DNA of 13,116 nucleotides, taken from NCBI GenBank assembly GCA_937901365.1, contig CALCEF010000098.1, forward strand, positions 1-13,116, given 5' to 3'. Below are positions 5,192 to 12,507 of this stretch, one piece after another (the first letter of the stretch is position 1; each line of letters opens with the position of its first letter). The notes beneath the pieces are model-generated. The model did not search any database. It saw only the letters and a program-made list of their open reading frames with translations, and had not been told where the DNA came from. This DNA comes from an uncultured euryarchaeote. GTDB taxonomy: Archaea; Thermoplasmatota; Poseidoniia; Poseidoniales; Thalassarchaeaceae. The position numbers were made by a program, and so were the translations under genes.

Positions 5192-5827
5192 TTGTCAGGA
5201 CTGCGTACAAGGACGATGAGCGCCATCATGGCCGTACTTTTCGTGTCCATGGCCATGCCTGGTTGTCTATCTCTTGTTCTCGGTCGAGAAATGATGGAAA
5301 GTGCCAGAGGTTTCCCCGAAGTTCAGGAAAAACCAACGCTTTACGACCTATCGCACACATTCGTTATCGACGGCACCGAACTTCTTCCCACTCAAAGCCA
5401 AAAAACGCTCTATGAACCAATCCCAATAGATGATACCGTGCGCGAAGTCATCATCTATTTCGAGACTTCAGTCAATTATTTCCTTGGAGATGCCGATATT
5501 CGATATGTACACGTTGAGTTGTTGTGGTGTGAGGACGATGGTGCTGGCAACCCCCTAAACTGTGACCAATCCAACCCGATTTACGAGGTAATGGCCGACA
5601 ACGGATCTTACGAACCAGAACGAATTGAATTAGATCGGAATGAGAATCCCTTTGAAAGTGGCGTATGGAGTCTTACTGTGGACGGTCGTGGAACGGGTTG
5701 GAACACAGGGGTGACCATTGTAGACGAACAAGATTCGTGGATTCTACGAGTCACCGTCGTTCGCCCATGCTTAGCCTTCCCCGAAAGTCCTGATGTATGC
5801 ACTCCAACAATTGAGTTCGAGGATTAA
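5192..5827 (+). CDS. Putative secreted lipoprotein of unknown function
   Basis: A 211-residue protein I do not recognise. Its N-terminus has the shape of an export signal: basic GLRTRT, hydrophobic MSAIMAVLFVSMAM, then PGC with Cys25 as possible lipidation site. The lipobox (MPGC) is a poor match to the usual L-A/S-G/A-C, so lipidation is uncertain. The mature part is beta-rich, with two close cysteine pairs (WCEDDGAGNPLNC and RPCLAFPESPDVC) that could form disulfides outside the cell. The listed start is TTG, preceded by a GAGGG motif; an in-frame ATG at 5216 would give a shorter N-terminus that keeps the signal. It lies 61 bp downstream of the CARDB/zinc-ribbon gene on the same strand and is probably co-transcribed, so it may be a surface partner of that protein. 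Its stop overlaps that of the convergent nuclease gene. Confidence 0.68.
   Translation: MSGLRTRTMSAIMAVLFVSMAMPGCLSLVLGREMMESARGFPEVQEKPTLYDLSHTFVIDGTELLPTQSQKTLYEPIPIDDTVREVIIYFETSVNYFLGDADIRYVHVELLWCEDDGAGNPLNCDQSNPIYEVMADNGSYEPERIELDRNENPFESGVWSLTVDGRGTGWNTGVTIVDEQDSWILRVTVVRPCLAFPESPDVCTPTIEFED
5824..5827. other. Shared TTAA: overlapping stop codons of convergent genes
   Basis: The plus-strand lipoprotein stop (TAA, 5825-5827) and the minus-strand nuclease stop (TAA, 5824-5826 on the other strand) share the palindrome TTAA. Both genes read GAT TAA or equivalent into it, leaving no room for a terminator between them. Confidence 0.8.
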
Positions 5828-7032
5828 ACCAAGCTCTGTGGGCATTTTGACCTGCGCGAGCAATTTCTACACTTCCCTTCTCGCTCATGGTTTCGCTTTG
5901 CGCCACCTTCAACCATAAGGCGTTGAATTTCTTTTACCGATGCAAACAAATCCGCTTTCGCCGCATCATTCCATGCAACGGTGAACAATGAGTCTCCCCC
6001 ATAGCGAAGTATTCCATACTCTGCTTCTGTATCTGTTGTTTTGCTGACTAGGTGAATGTAGGCGAGCAATTGCATTCGGTGACTGTCGTGAGGCTTAGTT
6101 GGTATTTTCCCCGTTTTTTGTTCGACAGGAATGAACTGGTTGTCTATTTTCACGATTTGATCAGGGCGGCCGCGAATACCGGTTTCGTCATCGACAAGTA
6201 AGGCGGCACTTTGGCCTGAATCATCGCTATATGCCAAGATTTCAGTTTTTGACAGCCCAGCGTCCTCTTTAGCATCAAGTGCCTCTCTACCCCTAATCAA
6301 TACGCGATGTAATTGCCAGGCACAGAATAGCAACCAAGCCAAGGTAATTACAATCAATGCAAAGGTCAGAACGGTTCTGTTTTGAGCCCAATAAATGGCC
6401 AATCCATGCAATGCAACCGCAATCGAAGCCAGAAGCAAGCGAACCTCGACTTTACCTGCCCCACTTCCCTCTTCTATTTCAAAACCGGAAACCATCTCTT
6501 CGTCCTGTAGTCCACTTCCATCTATTGTAGGGGGTTGGGCCAATCCGAAGGGGCGTCCCAGCCAGCGTCGCCAAGGCAACGAGATGAGGGTGATTGCCAA
6601 TACTAGCCACACCACGGCCAAGACGATTAGATAACGACCTACATCTTGGATAAATTGTTCTGAAATTGTGCCTTCACTGACGAAGAAAAATGCTGCCGAA
6701 TCGGCCGAAAGAGCACAAACGACCGTAATCCACCATGTCCAGATTACCAACTCCTGTGATGCTCGGGATTCGGAGCGCTTGTAGTCCAACATTTTCTCGT
6801 GAATACGATCATGCTCTCGCATCCCTTGCACCAACGCCTCTCCCTCTCCGCTGACACCTGCTTTGGACAATTGCCAGGAAACTGGACAGTATGTGTGTCT
6901 CTCTAAATCAGATGCCGAAACTGGTAATACAATCCCTTGCAAATCTGTCCAATACCCATCCTTTCGCATCTCCCCTTCGGTGATTGAACCTGAAAGGTCT
7001 AGGGCGTTTTCAACAGATTCATCCTCGCCCAT
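5824..7032 (-). CDS. Cas4/RecB-like PD-(D/E)XK nuclease with four inserted membrane helices
   Basis: A 402-residue protein with all hallmarks of a Cas4-type Fe-S exonuclease. The N-terminal part has SASDLERHTYCP with Cys49, and EHDRIHE with His78. The catalytic core follows near the C-terminus: GRPD (Asp291), VEQKTGK (Glu304, Lys306) and QLLAY (Gln321). It ends with the C-x2-C-x5-C cluster Cys388, Cys391 and Cys397, which together with Cys49 would hold a 4Fe-4S cluster. Between His78 and the PD motif, where Cas4 usually has a few dozen residues, lie about 200 residues containing four strongly hydrophobic segments (about 96-118, 133-152, 196-215, 219-240) separated by polar loops. The core would therefore sit at the membrane. 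No cas genes or repeats are nearby, so it is a solo Cas4-like protein with a role probably outside CRISPR adaptation. The ATG start lacks a clear Shine-Dalgarno. The family assignment is strong; topology and substrate are unknown. Confidence 0.85.
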   Translation of the reverse strand: MGEDESVENALDLSGSITEGEMRKDGYWTDLQGIVLPVSASDLERHTYCPVSWQLSKAGVSGEGEALVQGMREHDRIHEKMLDYKRSESRASQELVIWTWWITVVCALSADSAAFFFVSEGTISEQFIQDVGRYLIVLAVVWLVLAITLISLPWRRWLGRPFGLAQPPTIDGSGLQDEEMVSGFEIEEGSGAGKVEVRLLLASIAVALHGLAIYWAQNRTVLTFALIVITLAWLLFCAWQLHRVLIRGREALDAKEDAGLSKTEILAYSDDSGQSAALLVDDETGIRGRPDQIVKIDNQFIPVEQKTGKIPTKPHDSHRMQLLAYIHLVSKTTDTEAEYGILRYGGDSLFTVAWNDAAKADLFASVKEIQRLMVEGGAKRNHEREGKCRNCSRRSKCPQSLV

Positions 7033-7136: not shown

Positions 7137-7150
7137 CTCGCGTGCGCGAG
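7137..7150. repeat. Perfect dyad CTCGCG-TG-CGCGAG upstream of uS2
   Basis: Two perfect 6-bp arms with a 2-bp centre lie 52 bp upstream of the uS2 start, in the divergent region between the nuclease and uS2 genes. As RNA it would fold as a 5-bp stem with a 4-nt loop; as DNA it is a 14-bp palindrome. It could be an operator or part of a structured leader. The rest of the 169-bp region (7033-7201) holds no gene or RNA that I can recognise. Confidence 0.35.
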
Positions 7151-7201
7151 CGAAGCGGTTATGAAGAGGGGGTGGGTGGCGAGGCCGCACGAGGTTACGA
7201 A

Positions 7202-7807
7202 ATGACCGATTCAATGCTGGTTCCTCATGAAACCTATGAGGTAAACAAGGTTCACATTGGTACTCTACAGAAGAGTGCGGACATGAAACCGTTCCTCAGC
7301 GGAGATTCTGATGGTTCTGGATTGCACTTGATTGATTTGGAACACACCGACGCTCGAATGCGAATCGTTGCTCAATTCCTCAATCGATACGATGCGAATC
7401 GAATTCTAGTAGTGAGTGCACGCCAATATGGACAGCGCCCTGCTCGCAAGTTCGCTCAAGCAATCGGTGCCATGCACATCGTTGGTCGATTTATCCCAGG
7501 CACACTCACAAATCCAGGCCTTCGAACTTACATTGAACCCGAACTGATCGTTGTAACAGATCCACAAGCAGATCAGCAATCACTCTCAGAAGCGGTTAGC
7601 AGCGGTTTGCCCGTTGTTGCAATTTGCCATACTAACAACAATCTGCGAAACGTGGATTTGTGCCTTCCTGCAAATAACAAGGCCAAGGAAAGCCTAGCAA
7701 TGATTTACTGGCTACTTTCTCGCGAAGTCCTCAAGGTTCGCGGCACCATGGATGACGACACATGGGAAACCATGCACGATGTTGCTGATTGGAAATCCAC
7801 TTTCTGA
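7202..7807 (+). CDS. rps2: 30S ribosomal protein uS2, archaeal type
   Basis: This is the archaeal form of ribosomal protein S2 (uS2, eukaryotic SA homologue), part of the small subunit near the head-body junction. At 201 residues it is the usual archaeal length. Diagnostic stretches are VHIGTLQKSADMKPF near the N-terminus, LVVSARQYGQRPARKFA, GRFIPGTLTNPGLR, EPELIVVTDPQADQQ, the ICHTNNN segment, and the closing IYWLLSREVLKVRG. The open frame extends upstream to 7142, but the ATG at 7202 is preferred: the protein then begins at the expected place and GAGG lies 7 nt upstream. It is followed after 22 bp by the dihydrouridine synthase gene. The usual archaeal partners of rps2 (rpl18e, rpl13, rps9, rpoN, rpoK, eno) are not in this window. 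Confidence 0.97.
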   Translation: MTDSMLVPHETYEVNKVHIGTLQKSADMKPFLSGDSDGSGLHLIDLEHTDARMRIVAQFLNRYDANRILVVSARQYGQRPARKFAQAIGAMHIVGRFIPGTLTNPGLRTYIEPELIVVTDPQADQQSLSEAVSSGLPVVAICHTNNNLRNVDLCLPANNKAKESLAMIYWLLSREVLKVRGTMDDDTWETMHDVADWKSTF

Positions 7808-10004: not shown

Positions 10005-10160
10005 ATGGCCGTTGGTGAGTTCTGCTGGTGCTGTGAGTCCCGTATGACTCGCAAAATAGTCCCATTTATTGGGTTCATTGTTTGGTGGTGTGCAGAATGT
10101 ACACCTGATTTCGATTACGTTTCGTTCATCGAGAACCATGATTTCTGGGCAGAGGATTAA
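10005..10160 (+). CDS. Small cysteine-rich (zinc-ribbon-like) protein, 51 residues
   Basis: A short gene I do not recognise. The product has CWCC at residues 7-10 and CAEC at 29-32, giving a C-x2-C...C-x2-C pattern (C7, C10, C29, C32, with an extra C9) that suits zinc binding. Between them lie a basic MTRK and a hydrophobic stretch (IVPFIGFIVWW). The C-terminus is acidic and aromatic (ENHDFWAED). It could be a free-standing zinc ribbon or a small membrane-associated metal protein. The ATG lacks a Shine-Dalgarno, but a TATA-like element lies at leaderless spacing. It follows the sugar dehydrogenase gene by 22 bp and its stop overlaps the stop of the convergent winged-helix gene. Coding status rests on the paired cysteine motifs and the good fit between neighbours. 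Confidence 0.6.
   Translation: MAVGEFCWCCESRMTRKIVPFIGFIVWWCAECTPDFDYVSFIENHDFWAED
10157..10160. other. Second shared TTAA: overlapping stop codons of convergent genes
   Basis: The 51-residue gene stop (10158-10160, plus) and the double winged-helix gene stop (10157-10159, minus) again share one TTAA. The arrangement repeats the one at 5824-5827 and supports the small gene being real, since its stop fits exactly with its neighbour. Confidence 0.6.
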
Positions 10161-11260
10161 TCTGAATCAATCGCCTTTTCTAGTGTTTCAGCGACTCTCT
10201 TGATACGCCTAAATGTGCGATCCGCTTTGGACAATACACGTTCTCGAACCTGATTGGATTTAGCACCACACAAGCGCCAACCAATGGGTAACTTTCCTCC
10301 GAGTAAGTTGAGTATAACCATCTGTTCGTTGGACGGGACATCGGCAAACATTTTCTCACATGTAGCGACATTGAATGATTCATTGTCTAGGGATTTGACG
10401 ACCTTTTTGGCAATCCTCTCATCGATTCTTGAAAGCCCTCCTTTCTTCATCAACCAGTCACCACCCCGCCTGGCGTGTTGTGCTTGCAGTGCGGACCACA
10501 AGGTGACTGGTAATCGGTCGAGTCTAGGCACCCTCTCTGCTAATCCCGCGGACCAGAATCGATCTAGTGTACGAGTGAGTCGTGGTCGGGTTGTCCCCCA
10601 ATTTTCCAGAGCTTCATCCAATGAGAGTGGGGTGTGGGTCTTCAGTAGGTGCTCAAACATGAGTCTCCCTAGGGGAGGACTTCCATCGGCTGGGCGGCGG
10701 ACCCGATCCCCCAATAATCCAAGATCGAGTAGGAACGCATCCATCTCATCCTGCCCATCAGTGAGTGGTACACGTCCACGAATTTGGATCTGGAATGATA
10801 TATCGTCTTTCTTTTCAGAGGGAATTGACATTCGAACATCGCTTTCAGTCATCCAATCATCTAGTGCCCGAAGTCGCTGTTCTAGAACCAAGCGCGCTTC
10901 AGAGGCCATGATTTCAACCGCATTGGAAAGCGAACCATTCCGCAGATGATGCACCCTCCAACCATCACGATTGACACCCGCCGTGAGCCCACATTCGTTG
11001 AGTTTGCTCAATTGATACTGTATCGCGGTCGGGGAAAGCCCCAATTCATCCCCCAAGGTTTGTGCATCCCAGCCATCTCCTGGGTTCGCAAGCATATATT
11101 CACAGAGAATTCTGTGGATTGGAGAATGAACACCTTCCCCTGTCCATTCATCCCCGCTTCGGCGCACGAATTGCAAAGTATCGAGCAGCCAACTGACCAG
11201 TTGATCGACATCACGGCTACCTGCAGGTGCAGGCTGCTCGGCCAATCGCATGTTCAGCAT
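10157..11260 (-). CDS. Double winged-helix DNA-binding protein of unknown family
   Basis: A 367-residue cytosolic protein with two separate winged-helix regions. The first (about 44-105) is ArsR-like: HSPIHRILCEYMLANPGD, then LGDELGLSPTAIQYQLSKLNECGL, then a wing. The second (about 194-252) has SPPLGRLMFEHLLKTHTPLSLDEA and WGTTRPRLTRTLDRFWSAG, the shape of another recognition helix. The region between them is helical (LVLEQRLRALDDWM), with a charged segment (SEKKDDISFQIQIRGRVP). The C-terminal third is rich in Lys and Arg. No membrane helix or metal site is seen. It is the last of three regulator genes on this strand, 89 bp after the membrane-anchored one, with a hairpin just before its start. 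A transcriptional regulator is the likely role; target and signal are unknown. Confidence 0.75.
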   Translation of the reverse strand: MLNMRLAEQPAPAGSRDVDQLVSWLLDTLQFVRRSGDEWTGEGVHSPIHRILCEYMLANPGDGWDAQTLGDELGLSPTAIQYQLSKLNECGLTAGVNRDGWRVHHLRNGSLSNAVEIMASEARLVLEQRLRALDDWMTESDVRMSIPSEKKDDISFQIQIRGRVPLTDGQDEMDAFLLDLGLLGDRVRRPADGSPPLGRLMFEHLLKTHTPLSLDEALENWGTTRPRLTRTLDRFWSAGLAERVPRLDRLPVTLWSALQAQHARRGGDWLMKKGGLSRIDERIAKKVVKSLDNESFNVATCEKMFADVPSNEQMVILNLLGGKLPIGWRLCGAKSNQVRERVLSKADRTFRRIKRVAETLEKAIDSD

Positions 11261-11349: not shown

Positions 11350-11991
11350 TTACTCGGGTAGAGGTCGCTCATCCAGCCACTCATACTGTACACCAGAGGC
11401 CTGTAAGCCTTCGAGATGAGGTGCGAGTTTGAGTTCATGACTGTGAACAATCCCACGTCGCCTTAGAACTTTGATCGCTGAATGTACAGTAGCTCGAGAC
11501 CGCCCCAATTCGCGGCTGAGTTCGGCTTGACTCTTTGGCAATGGTGTCTTCATCAATCGAGCCACGACAATTCGCTGGGCACCAGAGAGCCCTACCGGCA
11601 TCATTCGCGCCGCACTTTCCGAATCTCCGACATTCATCTCTCGAAGAATTTCGAGTTGCTGTGGTGCTCCAGCATAGTGACAGGATCGTCCATTGACAGG
11701 AACGACGGTAATCGATCGATTTGCGATGAGAACATCGAGGTGATGTCTGAGTGTACCGTTTGCAGCCCCGAGTTCACGCTGCAATTCTCGATAAGCCAAA
11801 CCCGGTTGTGCTTCTAGGACTTGCAAAATGCGTTGACGAAGTGGATGCTCCCAAGGGTTGGAAGTTTGAGTTGAAATCACCCCAGATGCGGACCAATTCC
11901 ACGGCATGACCGCACCAAGGCTGGCGCCCACAGCAGCCACTCCAGCCATGAGCCAGGGGCGCTGACGGTGCCATTGCTGTAGCAGTGCCAT
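11350..11991 (-). CDS. Membrane-anchored double winged-helix (ArsR/MarR-like) transcriptional regulator
   Basis: A 213-residue protein with one N-terminal membrane helix (about 13-30, WLMAGVAAVGASLGAVMPW) and two cytosolic winged helices. The first (about 48-107) has HPLRQRILQVLEAQPGLAYREL and GAANGTLRHHLDVLIANRSI, an ArsR-like recognition region, followed by the wing VNGRSCHYAG. The second (about 133-190) has LSGAQRIVVARLMKTPLPKSQ, LSRELGRSRATVHSAIKVLRRRG and a wing. Tandem winged helices tethered to the membrane are a recurrent archaeal theme, and such proteins are thought to tie membrane or envelope state to transcription. It lies 63 bp downstream of the HxlR gene on the same strand. A 17-bp palindrome directly before the start codon overlaps the presumed ribosome-binding site. 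The signal and targets are unknown. Confidence 0.83.
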   Translation of the reverse strand: MALLQQWHRQRPWLMAGVAAVGASLGAVMPWNWSASGVISTQTSNPWEHPLRQRILQVLEAQPGLAYRELQRELGAANGTLRHHLDVLIANRSITVVPVNGRSCHYAGAPQQLEILREMNVGDSESAARMMPVGLSGAQRIVVARLMKTPLPKSQAELSRELGRSRATVHSAIKVLRRRGIVHSHELKLAPHLEGLQASGVQYEWLDERPLPE

Positions 11992-12054: not shown

Positions 12055-12507
12055 CTATTTTTGCTGGACTGAGCCCTTTTGCAATTTCATGTAAGCCACG
12101 AGCGGCCCCAACAAGCGACCGGCTCGCTGACCGTGTTCGGTCAAACGATAGGTGACACGAACCGGCGGGCCATCGACGACAATGCGATCAATCAGACCAT
12201 TCTCTGTACACTTTCGCAATTTATCCGAGAGGGTACGACTTGAAATCCCCGTCAACAATTTCCGCAACTCATTGAATCGCCGCTCCCCCGCAATGTACAG
12301 CGTTGCAAGAATCTCAATCGTCCAGCGACTGGTAAAGACATCCAAAGCTTCGACAGAGGCTTCAACCTCCCACGCTAAATTGTGCTCTTCACTTTGGTAT
12401 TCGGTGAATATTTGGCGGATTCGAGCCCCCATTCCCTCAGTTGTCACGATACTAGAATCGATTTCTTTCATGTCATCATGCGGTAAAATCATCGGTGGTT
12501 CAGGCAT
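12055..12507 (-). CDS. HxlR-family winged-helix transcriptional regulator
   Basis: A 150-residue DNA-binding protein of the HxlR (MarR-like) family. The domain spans about 45-140: FTSRWTIEILATLYIAG, then RRFNELRKLLTGISSRTLS with the recognition helix, KLRKCTENGLIDR, and the wing PPVRVTYRLTEHG. The family's usual N-terminal redox or ligand cysteine is absent; the only cysteine is Cys100, in the helix after the recognition helix. The first 44 residues are an unusual acidic extension, and an in-frame ATG at 12471 is an alternative start. A GGTGA motif precedes the chosen ATG. It is the first of three minus-strand regulator genes and is divergent from a two-peptide gene pair. HxlR proteins commonly control adjacent divergent genes, so the peptide pair is the natural target; this is inferred. 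Confidence 0.92.
   Translation of the reverse strand: MPEPPMILPHDDMKEIDSSIVTTEGMGARIRQIFTEYQSEEHNLAWEVEASVEALDVFTSRWTIEILATLYIAGERRFNELRKLLTGISSRTLSDKLRKCTENGLIDRIVVDGPPVRVTYRLTEHGQRAGRLLGPLVAYMKLQKGSVQQK

Follow-up and report, generated by a model that had tools for sequence, protein, structure and literature searches.

A probable membrane-integral Cas4-family nuclease of Poseidoniales archaea, encoded outside any cas locus

The window analysed here, 13,116 bp that make up one entire contig (CALCEF010000098.1) of an archaeon of the order Poseidoniales (genome 1.76 Mb, 81% complete), contains a gene for a Cas4-family protein of 402 amino acids (aa). Hydrophobic segments lie between the two parts of its nuclease. 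In this protein family a Cas4 core binds an iron-sulfur (Fe-S) cluster and cuts DNA ends. The explanation that we favour, with somewhat better than even confidence, is that the protein is a membrane-integral solo-Cas4 nuclease. One Cas4-type PD-(D/E)XK nuclease with four Fe-S cysteines would fold from two halves that are widely separated in sequence, and the intervening stretch would form at least one transmembrane helical hairpin that starts and finishes on the cytoplasmic side. The halves would then meet beneath the membrane and pin the enzyme there. In some lineages the chain would be cut at the predicted outer turn, and two single-pass proteins would come together to give the enzyme. The signature residues, the hydrophobic hairpins and their nearly always even number, the splits, the conservation of the gene and its independence from CRISPR (clustered regularly interspaced short palindromic repeats) are read directly from the sequences and their comparison.

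Signature residues and Cas4 family membership

When the window protein is aligned with 32 relatives (33 rows), the residues C49, H74, D291, E304, K306, Q321, Y325, C388, C391 and C397 are invariant. They include the catalytic set PD..ExK..QxxxY, the histidine of an equally invariant GxxxH motif (G70-x3-H74), and four putative Fe-S cysteines, one N-terminal and three C-terminal. Every signature residue named in a first-pass annotation of this DNA is found in this set except H78, which varies among relatives; the conserved histidine is H74. In a phylum-wide alignment the N-terminal cysteine, the GxxxH motif and the tryptophan are also invariant, and outside Poseidoniales the C-terminal cysteine stretch reads approximately HRNHNRPGKCxxCSRRxxCPERL.

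The 402-aa protein matches the Pfam families PF01930 (Cas_Cas4; 36.7 bits, cut-off 22.7) and PF12705 (PDDEXK_1), and beyond these only Gp22, below threshold. With the NCBIfam model TIGR00372 (CRISPR-associated Cas4 equivalog) it scores 60.9 bits and does not reach the cut-off of 65. In a six-frame search of the gene's own genome PF01930 did not register as a match. EXO5, Dna2 and AdnA are among the structural matches of the AlphaFold models. Judged by its sequence and predicted fold, the window protein is a Cas4-family nuclease, which would bind an Fe-S cluster and be active.

The hydrophobic insert and its predicted topology

Four hydrophobic stretches lie between H74 and D291 (Table 1; Kyte-Doolittle hydropathy over a 19-residue span, at least 1.6). 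The family-averaged hydropathy profile has four segments at nearly the same positions, in agreement with the first-pass annotation, which had likewise placed four segments after the N-terminal Cys/His region and ahead of the PD motif. A count at a threshold of 1.4, restricted to the stretch from the first cysteine motif to the PD motif, covered 73 loci, a further 6 of the 79 not being parsed: 55 loci had four segments, 11 had two, three had eight and four had three. At a threshold of 1.2 the loci with three segments drop to 2, while stray segments elsewhere go from 1 to 12; at 1.6 the loci with three segments increase to 9, because weak segments fall below the line. If the cysteines and catalytic residues of both halves have to share one active site, the topology demands even helix numbers. 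As a control, 27 Cas4 or Cas4-Cas1 open reading frames (ORFs) of the phylum, all adjoining or fused to Cas1 by their coordinates, have no hydrophobic segment in the Cas4 part (L188 and L211, each a neighbouring ORF, and L209, of a split family, are uncounted).

Along the chain of the 329-aa type the successive loops have lysine plus arginine (K+R) values of 3.2, 0.9, 2.9, 0.4 and 4.0, a pattern that fits both halves inside. In the AlphaFold models the Cas4 core closes round the insert, and long helices are present besides that core. The near-constant even helix counts, the loop charge bias (weak in Poseidoniales), splits at the hairpin turn and these models all support the proposal that the halves meet on one side of the membrane. 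Within the reach of the tools, structure prediction did not place the segments as helices buried in a soluble fold.

Two polar residues within the segments are invariant in 33/33 Poseidoniales rows: D111 (6700-6702) in segment 1 and H209 (6406-6408) in segment 3. The charged aspartate and the histidine may pair within the membrane; their conservation does not extend phylum-wide. A far bigger membrane domain, with about eight segments between the Cas4 halves, is found in five loci (L071, L128, L182, L183 and L235), where the protein has about 480-580 aa.

Split forms in archaea and on bacterial plasmids

In the families f16 and f27, and less surely in f6, the Cas4 profile matched two separate frames. 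The upstream ORF, of 85-125 codons, carries the cysteine and GxxxH motifs and, after them, a single hydrophobic segment; the downstream ORF has another such segment, behind which lie the catalytic part and three cysteines. The 29 split loci comprise 14 in f16 (14/14 genomes searched), 10 in f27 (10/10), 4 in f6 (of 10 genomes) and a second copy in f35; L234 and L235, which belong to the set of 30 loci read for separate frames, are single-chain forms and are left out of this count. Both halves are seen in 28 of the 29 loci, the other being L261, which lies at a contig start and lacks the N-terminal half. In 28/28 N-terminal halves the hydrophobic segment stops 0-7 residues ahead of the stop codon, and thus the break falls at the outer turn predicted by the topology. 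The cysteine and GxxxH patterns are present in 26/28. As an example of both forms together, one genome (G149; loci L209 and L234) encodes an unbroken membrane Cas4 of 356 aa alongside a further copy that is split into frames of 98 aa and 195 aa.

The two halves in f27 are found in frames 0, +1 and +2 relative to each other, so the split is not a single sequencing error, and this variation favours two chains. In f16 there may be two chains, or one chain made by frameshifting. By-eye reading of its junction sequences places the start of the second half within a four-base overlap in 12/14 loci, mostly behind a GGTGAT-like stretch. At that start position nine loci read ATA, two TTG and one ATG, and in the remaining two an ATG comes just past the stop. 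In the nine loci with ATA (L236-L239, L242, L243, L245, L246 and L248) this codon overlaps the upstream stop as ATAG or ATAA, and either a conserved AUA start or frameshifting may be involved. For f6 the sequences make the split less sure than for f16 and f27, as its N-terminal halves match weakly (E values 0.004 to 0.12) and the cysteine and GxxxH pattern is seen in 1/3.

A tblastn search of plasmids with a 329-aa relative as query matched nine records, none over more than 80% of the query. Three were inspected, namely Bacillus subtilis NRS6116_2, Paludisphaera borealis PALBO2 and Singulisphaera acidiphila pSINAC03; the others are four cyanobacterial plasmids (three annotated cas4) and two more from Bacillus. 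In all three inspected plasmids a small gene annotated "hypothetical" encodes the YC-x3-W and GxxxH motifs and, at its C-terminal end, a single segment. It either stops 4 bases short of a Cas4-type gene or overlaps it by 4 bases, and the product of that second gene has a single segment at its N-terminal end. The Bacillus pair occupies positions 1179-1424 and 1429-1917 of locus L264. By sequence, then, the split form is present in bacteria too. On the Bacillus plasmid (63.6 kb) a helicase gene and one small ORF precede the Cas4 pair, and pilus-type genes lie about 9 kb from it.

Independence from CRISPR

The first-pass annotation had stated that cas genes and CRISPR repeats are lacking nearby, and this holds: no other cas gene was found among the 10 window ORFs scanned, and the window has no direct repeats of at least 20 nt. 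The gene is thus a solo-Cas4 in the sense of a Cas4-family gene outside any cas locus. In a search of 389 genomes of the phylum, Cas1 was found in 79; the window's class, with its order, family and genus, contributes none of these, and Cas1 was not found in the gene's own genome, which is 81% complete. A profile of the membrane Cas4 matches 49 of the 79 Cas1 genomes and 198 of the 310 others (Fisher P 0.79). A CRISPR link was rejected for the window's lineage on these two grounds, no Cas1 in the class and no association over the phylum. Several genomes, for example G115, G217, G245 and G357, have a membrane Cas4 plus a separate Cas4 beside Cas1. In an unrooted tree built from 142 columns of the catalytic half (L188, L209 and L211 left out), one branch (96/92) separates 107 membrane or split forms from 27 CRISPR Cas4 proteins of the phylum, which is consistent with one origin of the membrane and split forms.

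Distribution, locus and neighbouring genes

The gene is present in 46/59 relatives searched, and this recurrence means that the observation exceeds chance; in nearly all carriers it has a single location per genome. It was not found in 13/59, which are every sampled member of seven genera in its own family. The profile of 33 sequences matches 247/389 genomes of the phylum, a count of profile matches with weak ones included and the genes not all inspected individually; in protein searches the best 120 of 956 and the best 120 of 553 matches were considered. An assembly error or local fusion, which the first-pass annotation had named as a possible cause, was rejected, as the gene recurs in relatives, has phylum-wide matches and sits in a conserved locus. 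It is worth noting that one genome has a second, broken copy with stops (G046:C6:85786-86948) and holds an intact gene on a different contig.

Table 1. Features of the gene and its direct neighbours in the window
Feature	Positions	Strand	Basis or remark
Putative membrane-integral solo-Cas4 gene	5824..7032	-	402 aa, ATG start, stop counted in
N-terminal half-motifs, residues 37-75: E44, Y48-C49-P50..W53 (first putative Fe-S cysteine), G70-x3-H74	6808..6924	-	Invariant columns
Hydrophobic segment 1, residues ~101-119, contains D111	6676..6732	-	Hydropathy, alignment
Hydrophobic segment 2, residues ~134-152	6577..6633	-	Hydropathy
Hydrophobic segment 3, residues ~195-213, contains H209	6394..6450	-	Hydropathy, alignment
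Hydrophobic segment 4, residues ~220-238	6319..6375	-	Hydropathy
Catalytic part, residues 287-325: R-G-R-P290-D291, E304-x-K306, Q321-x3-Y325	6058..6174	-	Pfam, alignment
C-terminal putative Fe-S cysteines, residues 382-399: H382, C388-x2-C391-x5-C397	5836..5889	-	Alignment
Convergent neighbour, 211-aa protein, lipoprotein-like N-terminus (judged by eye)	5192..5827	+	No Pfam match
Divergent neighbour, ribosomal protein uS2, in conserved housekeeping block	7142..7807	+	Bounds as listed ORF

In Poseidoniales the gene belongs to a block with genes for a KH-domain-like protein, CARDB proteins, a lipoprotein-like protein, uS2, Dus and winged-helix regulators, each of which was seen in 15-17 of the 17 loci examined. 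The lipoprotein-like neighbour has a homologue in 16/17 of these loci and adjoins Cas4 in 8 loci viewed. As functional partners, it and the CARDB proteins were given no weight, since the entire block is equally syntenic. Three consecutive winged-helix/helix-turn-helix genes are found in the window (10157-11260, 11350-11991 and 12055-12507, the last HxlR-like), with homologues in most Poseidoniales loci.

Most of the proteins from outside Poseidoniales have about 330 aa; their two halves are the same and their insert is shorter. One relative of the f27 type, a C-terminal half of 172 aa, bears the name Cuniculiplasma sp. The neighbour survey outside Poseidoniales covers 62 loci; of the 81 stretches fetched in all, Poseidoniales included, two were without a match (L145 and L167). 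In 15/62 the gene directly upstream, in the same orientation and at a gap of -11 to 61 nt, encodes a TPD-domain protein, a family that includes human C15orf41/CDIN1. Within five genes of Cas4, 6/62 loci have a gene for a lamin-tail/PLD-type protein that is apparently exported; in 3/62 it is directly upstream on the same strand, with gaps of 11-24 nt. This PLD neighbour gives PADLOC matches to DrmC, which were taken for the common PLD fold. In family f3, of the same class (L119, L120, L122, L153, L159 and L173), a Cas4 with two segments follows a small membrane protein on the same strand. A very large protein is encoded upstream, again on the same strand, of about 1,800 aa in L120, L122 and L173; the one scanned has no Pfam match.

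Possible roles

For a membrane-integral Cas4 the cell membrane is the probable site of action on DNA. The enzyme would cut or trim DNA that appears at the membrane's inner face, and chiefly DNA on its way into the cell, while the tether, by analogy with a bacterial system described below, would limit cutting to DNA at the membrane and so spare the chromosome. Such a role, with entering DNA foremost, is the likeliest of those considered, at a little under an even chance; it is favoured because of the membrane site and the carriage on plasmids. Genome maintenance at the envelope ranks second. More tentatively, one may picture a gatekeeper, that is, a phylum-wide family of membrane-stitched nucleases with halves joined by hairpins or, in several archaeal families and on bacterial plasmids, made as separate proteins, which would cut entering DNA in CRISPR-independent immunity or entry processing and would possibly be switched by assembly. 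A viral or phage origin found no support in five scans: no relative was found in IMG/VR, scanned with A1, A2 and A4, or by phage tblastn with two queries, which is weak evidence, as such scans find mostly near relatives.

Several results weigh against a membrane-integral nuclease that acts on entering DNA. The hydropathy of window segments 1 and 3 is just moderate (1.66 and 1.86), and at a threshold of 1.6 three segments rather than four are counted in 6/17 Poseidoniales loci. The loop charge bias there is weak, with 1.2 K+R in the 5-residue loop 3 and more aspartate plus glutamate than K+R in loop 2. In the model of the window protein the insert helices form blocks with a predicted local distance difference test (pLDDT) score of about 68-91 and the loop 158-193 is under 50; the insert blocks in the model of a relative are at 46-80. 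PADLOC matches of the protein are to generic Cas4, Cas1-fusion and DruK PD-(D/E)XK models and nothing else. Vertical inheritance within a ribosomal-gene block suits a housekeeping role at least equally with defence, and ComEC was found in 0/79 genomes of the window's family, which speaks against classical uptake. The moderate segments, along with the conserved D111 and H209 inside them, would also suit a soluble enzyme that buries its hydrophobic stretches as helices or uses them as a protein-protein interface. This is highly improbable given that the split halves carry single, strongly hydrophobic end segments (Kyte-Doolittle mostly 2.4-3.6, lowest 1.78), that segment numbers are mainly 2, 4 or 8, and that the models have long helices on top of the Cas4 core. 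Less probable again is a CRISPR adaptation Cas4 relocated from its locus. The nearest Pfam, NCBIfam and PADLOC models are those of CRISPR Cas4, and certain solo-Cas4 proteins are described as participating in adaptation in the part of PMC12538437 consulted; against this stand the lack of Cas1 from genus to class among the 389 genomes searched, the lack of association over the phylum, the genomes that keep a separate Cas4 next to Cas1, and the position of the membrane forms on the other side of the tree.

If the protein is a membrane-integral Cas4, it could instead serve genome maintenance at the envelope, trimming the cell's own flaps, ends and stalled forks where the chromosome touches the membrane. 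This is a less likely role than action on entering DNA, and is favoured because of the vertical inheritance in a housekeeping block. The single place per genome, the lack of a tie to Cas1 and of a virus or phage match in the scans made, the adjoining TPD-domain gene and the structural matches to EXO5, Dna2 and AdnA agree with it, as does the report, in the available part of PMC5704561, that solo-Cas4 genes are mostly vertically inherited. A membrane anchor would be an odd location for general repair, however, and the gene was not found in the seven genera mentioned above. TPD was rejected as a fixed partner because it occurs in 239/389 genomes, also where membrane Cas4 was not found. It is improbable that the enzyme, alongside exported nucleases, processes DNA acquired for transformation or as food. 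The exported-looking lamin-tail/PLD gene and the pilus-type genes of the Bacillus plasmid, though distant from the pair, speak for such a role, but the PLD neighbour is rare, and none of the 17 Poseidoniales loci has it clustered near Cas4. The uptake role that the first-pass annotation had suggested is also weakened for the window's family by the ComEC result, other archaeal routes being possible; as a co-occurrence test ComEC, the sole uptake protein tested, was set aside, as it offers no variation to correlate.

Comparison with known systems and significance

EXO5, Dna2, AdnA and AddB are soluble Fe-S nucleases, several of them parts of large enzymes, and we know of no membrane insert in any of them. 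EXO5 and Dna2 have the nuclease fold in common with the window protein, but no helicase domain was found in the latter. Solo-Cas4 genes of archaea are already known (Hudaiberdiev et al. 2017, PMC5704561); in the available main text of that paper "transmembrane" occurs 0 times and "membrane" once, inside a gene name. The solved archaeal solo-Cas4 proteins SSO0001 (4ic1) and Pcal_0546 (4r5q) are soluble, single-domain chains of 206 and 215 residues with no room for an insert, whereas the window protein has about twice that length and its hydrophobic segments lie within the fold. CRISPR Cas4 proteins (7mi4, Cas4/Cas1; 8d3l, type I-C) are found beside or fused to Cas1, and those of the phylum have neither the segments nor a place on the same side of the tree. 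ACE1, an Argonaute-associated Cas4 family (9iac and 9iab), is tied to Argonaute, to judge by the title. From sequence and models, then, the window protein is not a CRISPR Cas4, and its predicted architecture is unlike that of the soluble solo-Cas4 proteins. The literature searched, exact phrases included, yielded no account of a Cas4 that is membrane-bound, transmembrane or split, a search that did not cover subscription papers and some preprints; the parts consulted of PMC10354927, PMC5847659 and PMC6509639 likewise gave nothing on a membrane Cas4.

The nearest working comparison is SNIPE (Saxton et al. 2026, PMC13190303), which, according to the available part of that paper, is a membrane-anchored, cytoplasm-facing nuclease that cuts phage DNA during injection, is toxic without its anchor and is kept off host DNA by its tether. 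It is a precedent for the tether logic proposed for the window protein, a likeness in way of working only. SNIPE is bacterial and unrelated, as it combines GIY-YIG and DUF4041 with an N-terminal single-pass anchor and has no Cas4 core; a Pfam scan found neither GIY-YIG nor DUF4041 in the window protein, which is thus not a SNIPE member.

Cas4 and its kin (EXO5, Dna2, AddB) are usually regarded as soluble DNA-end enzymes. If the favoured reading is true, there are cells that carry out DNA-end cutting at the membrane and do not depend on CRISPR to do so, and the design would extend through widespread marine archaea and the whole phylum to bacterial plasmids, there as a two-gene split. The split forms open topology, assembly and role to testing in cultivable hosts (a Bacillus subtilis plasmid and a Cuniculiplasma relative), and the finding would bear on which non-CRISPR function solo-Cas4 enzymes serve.
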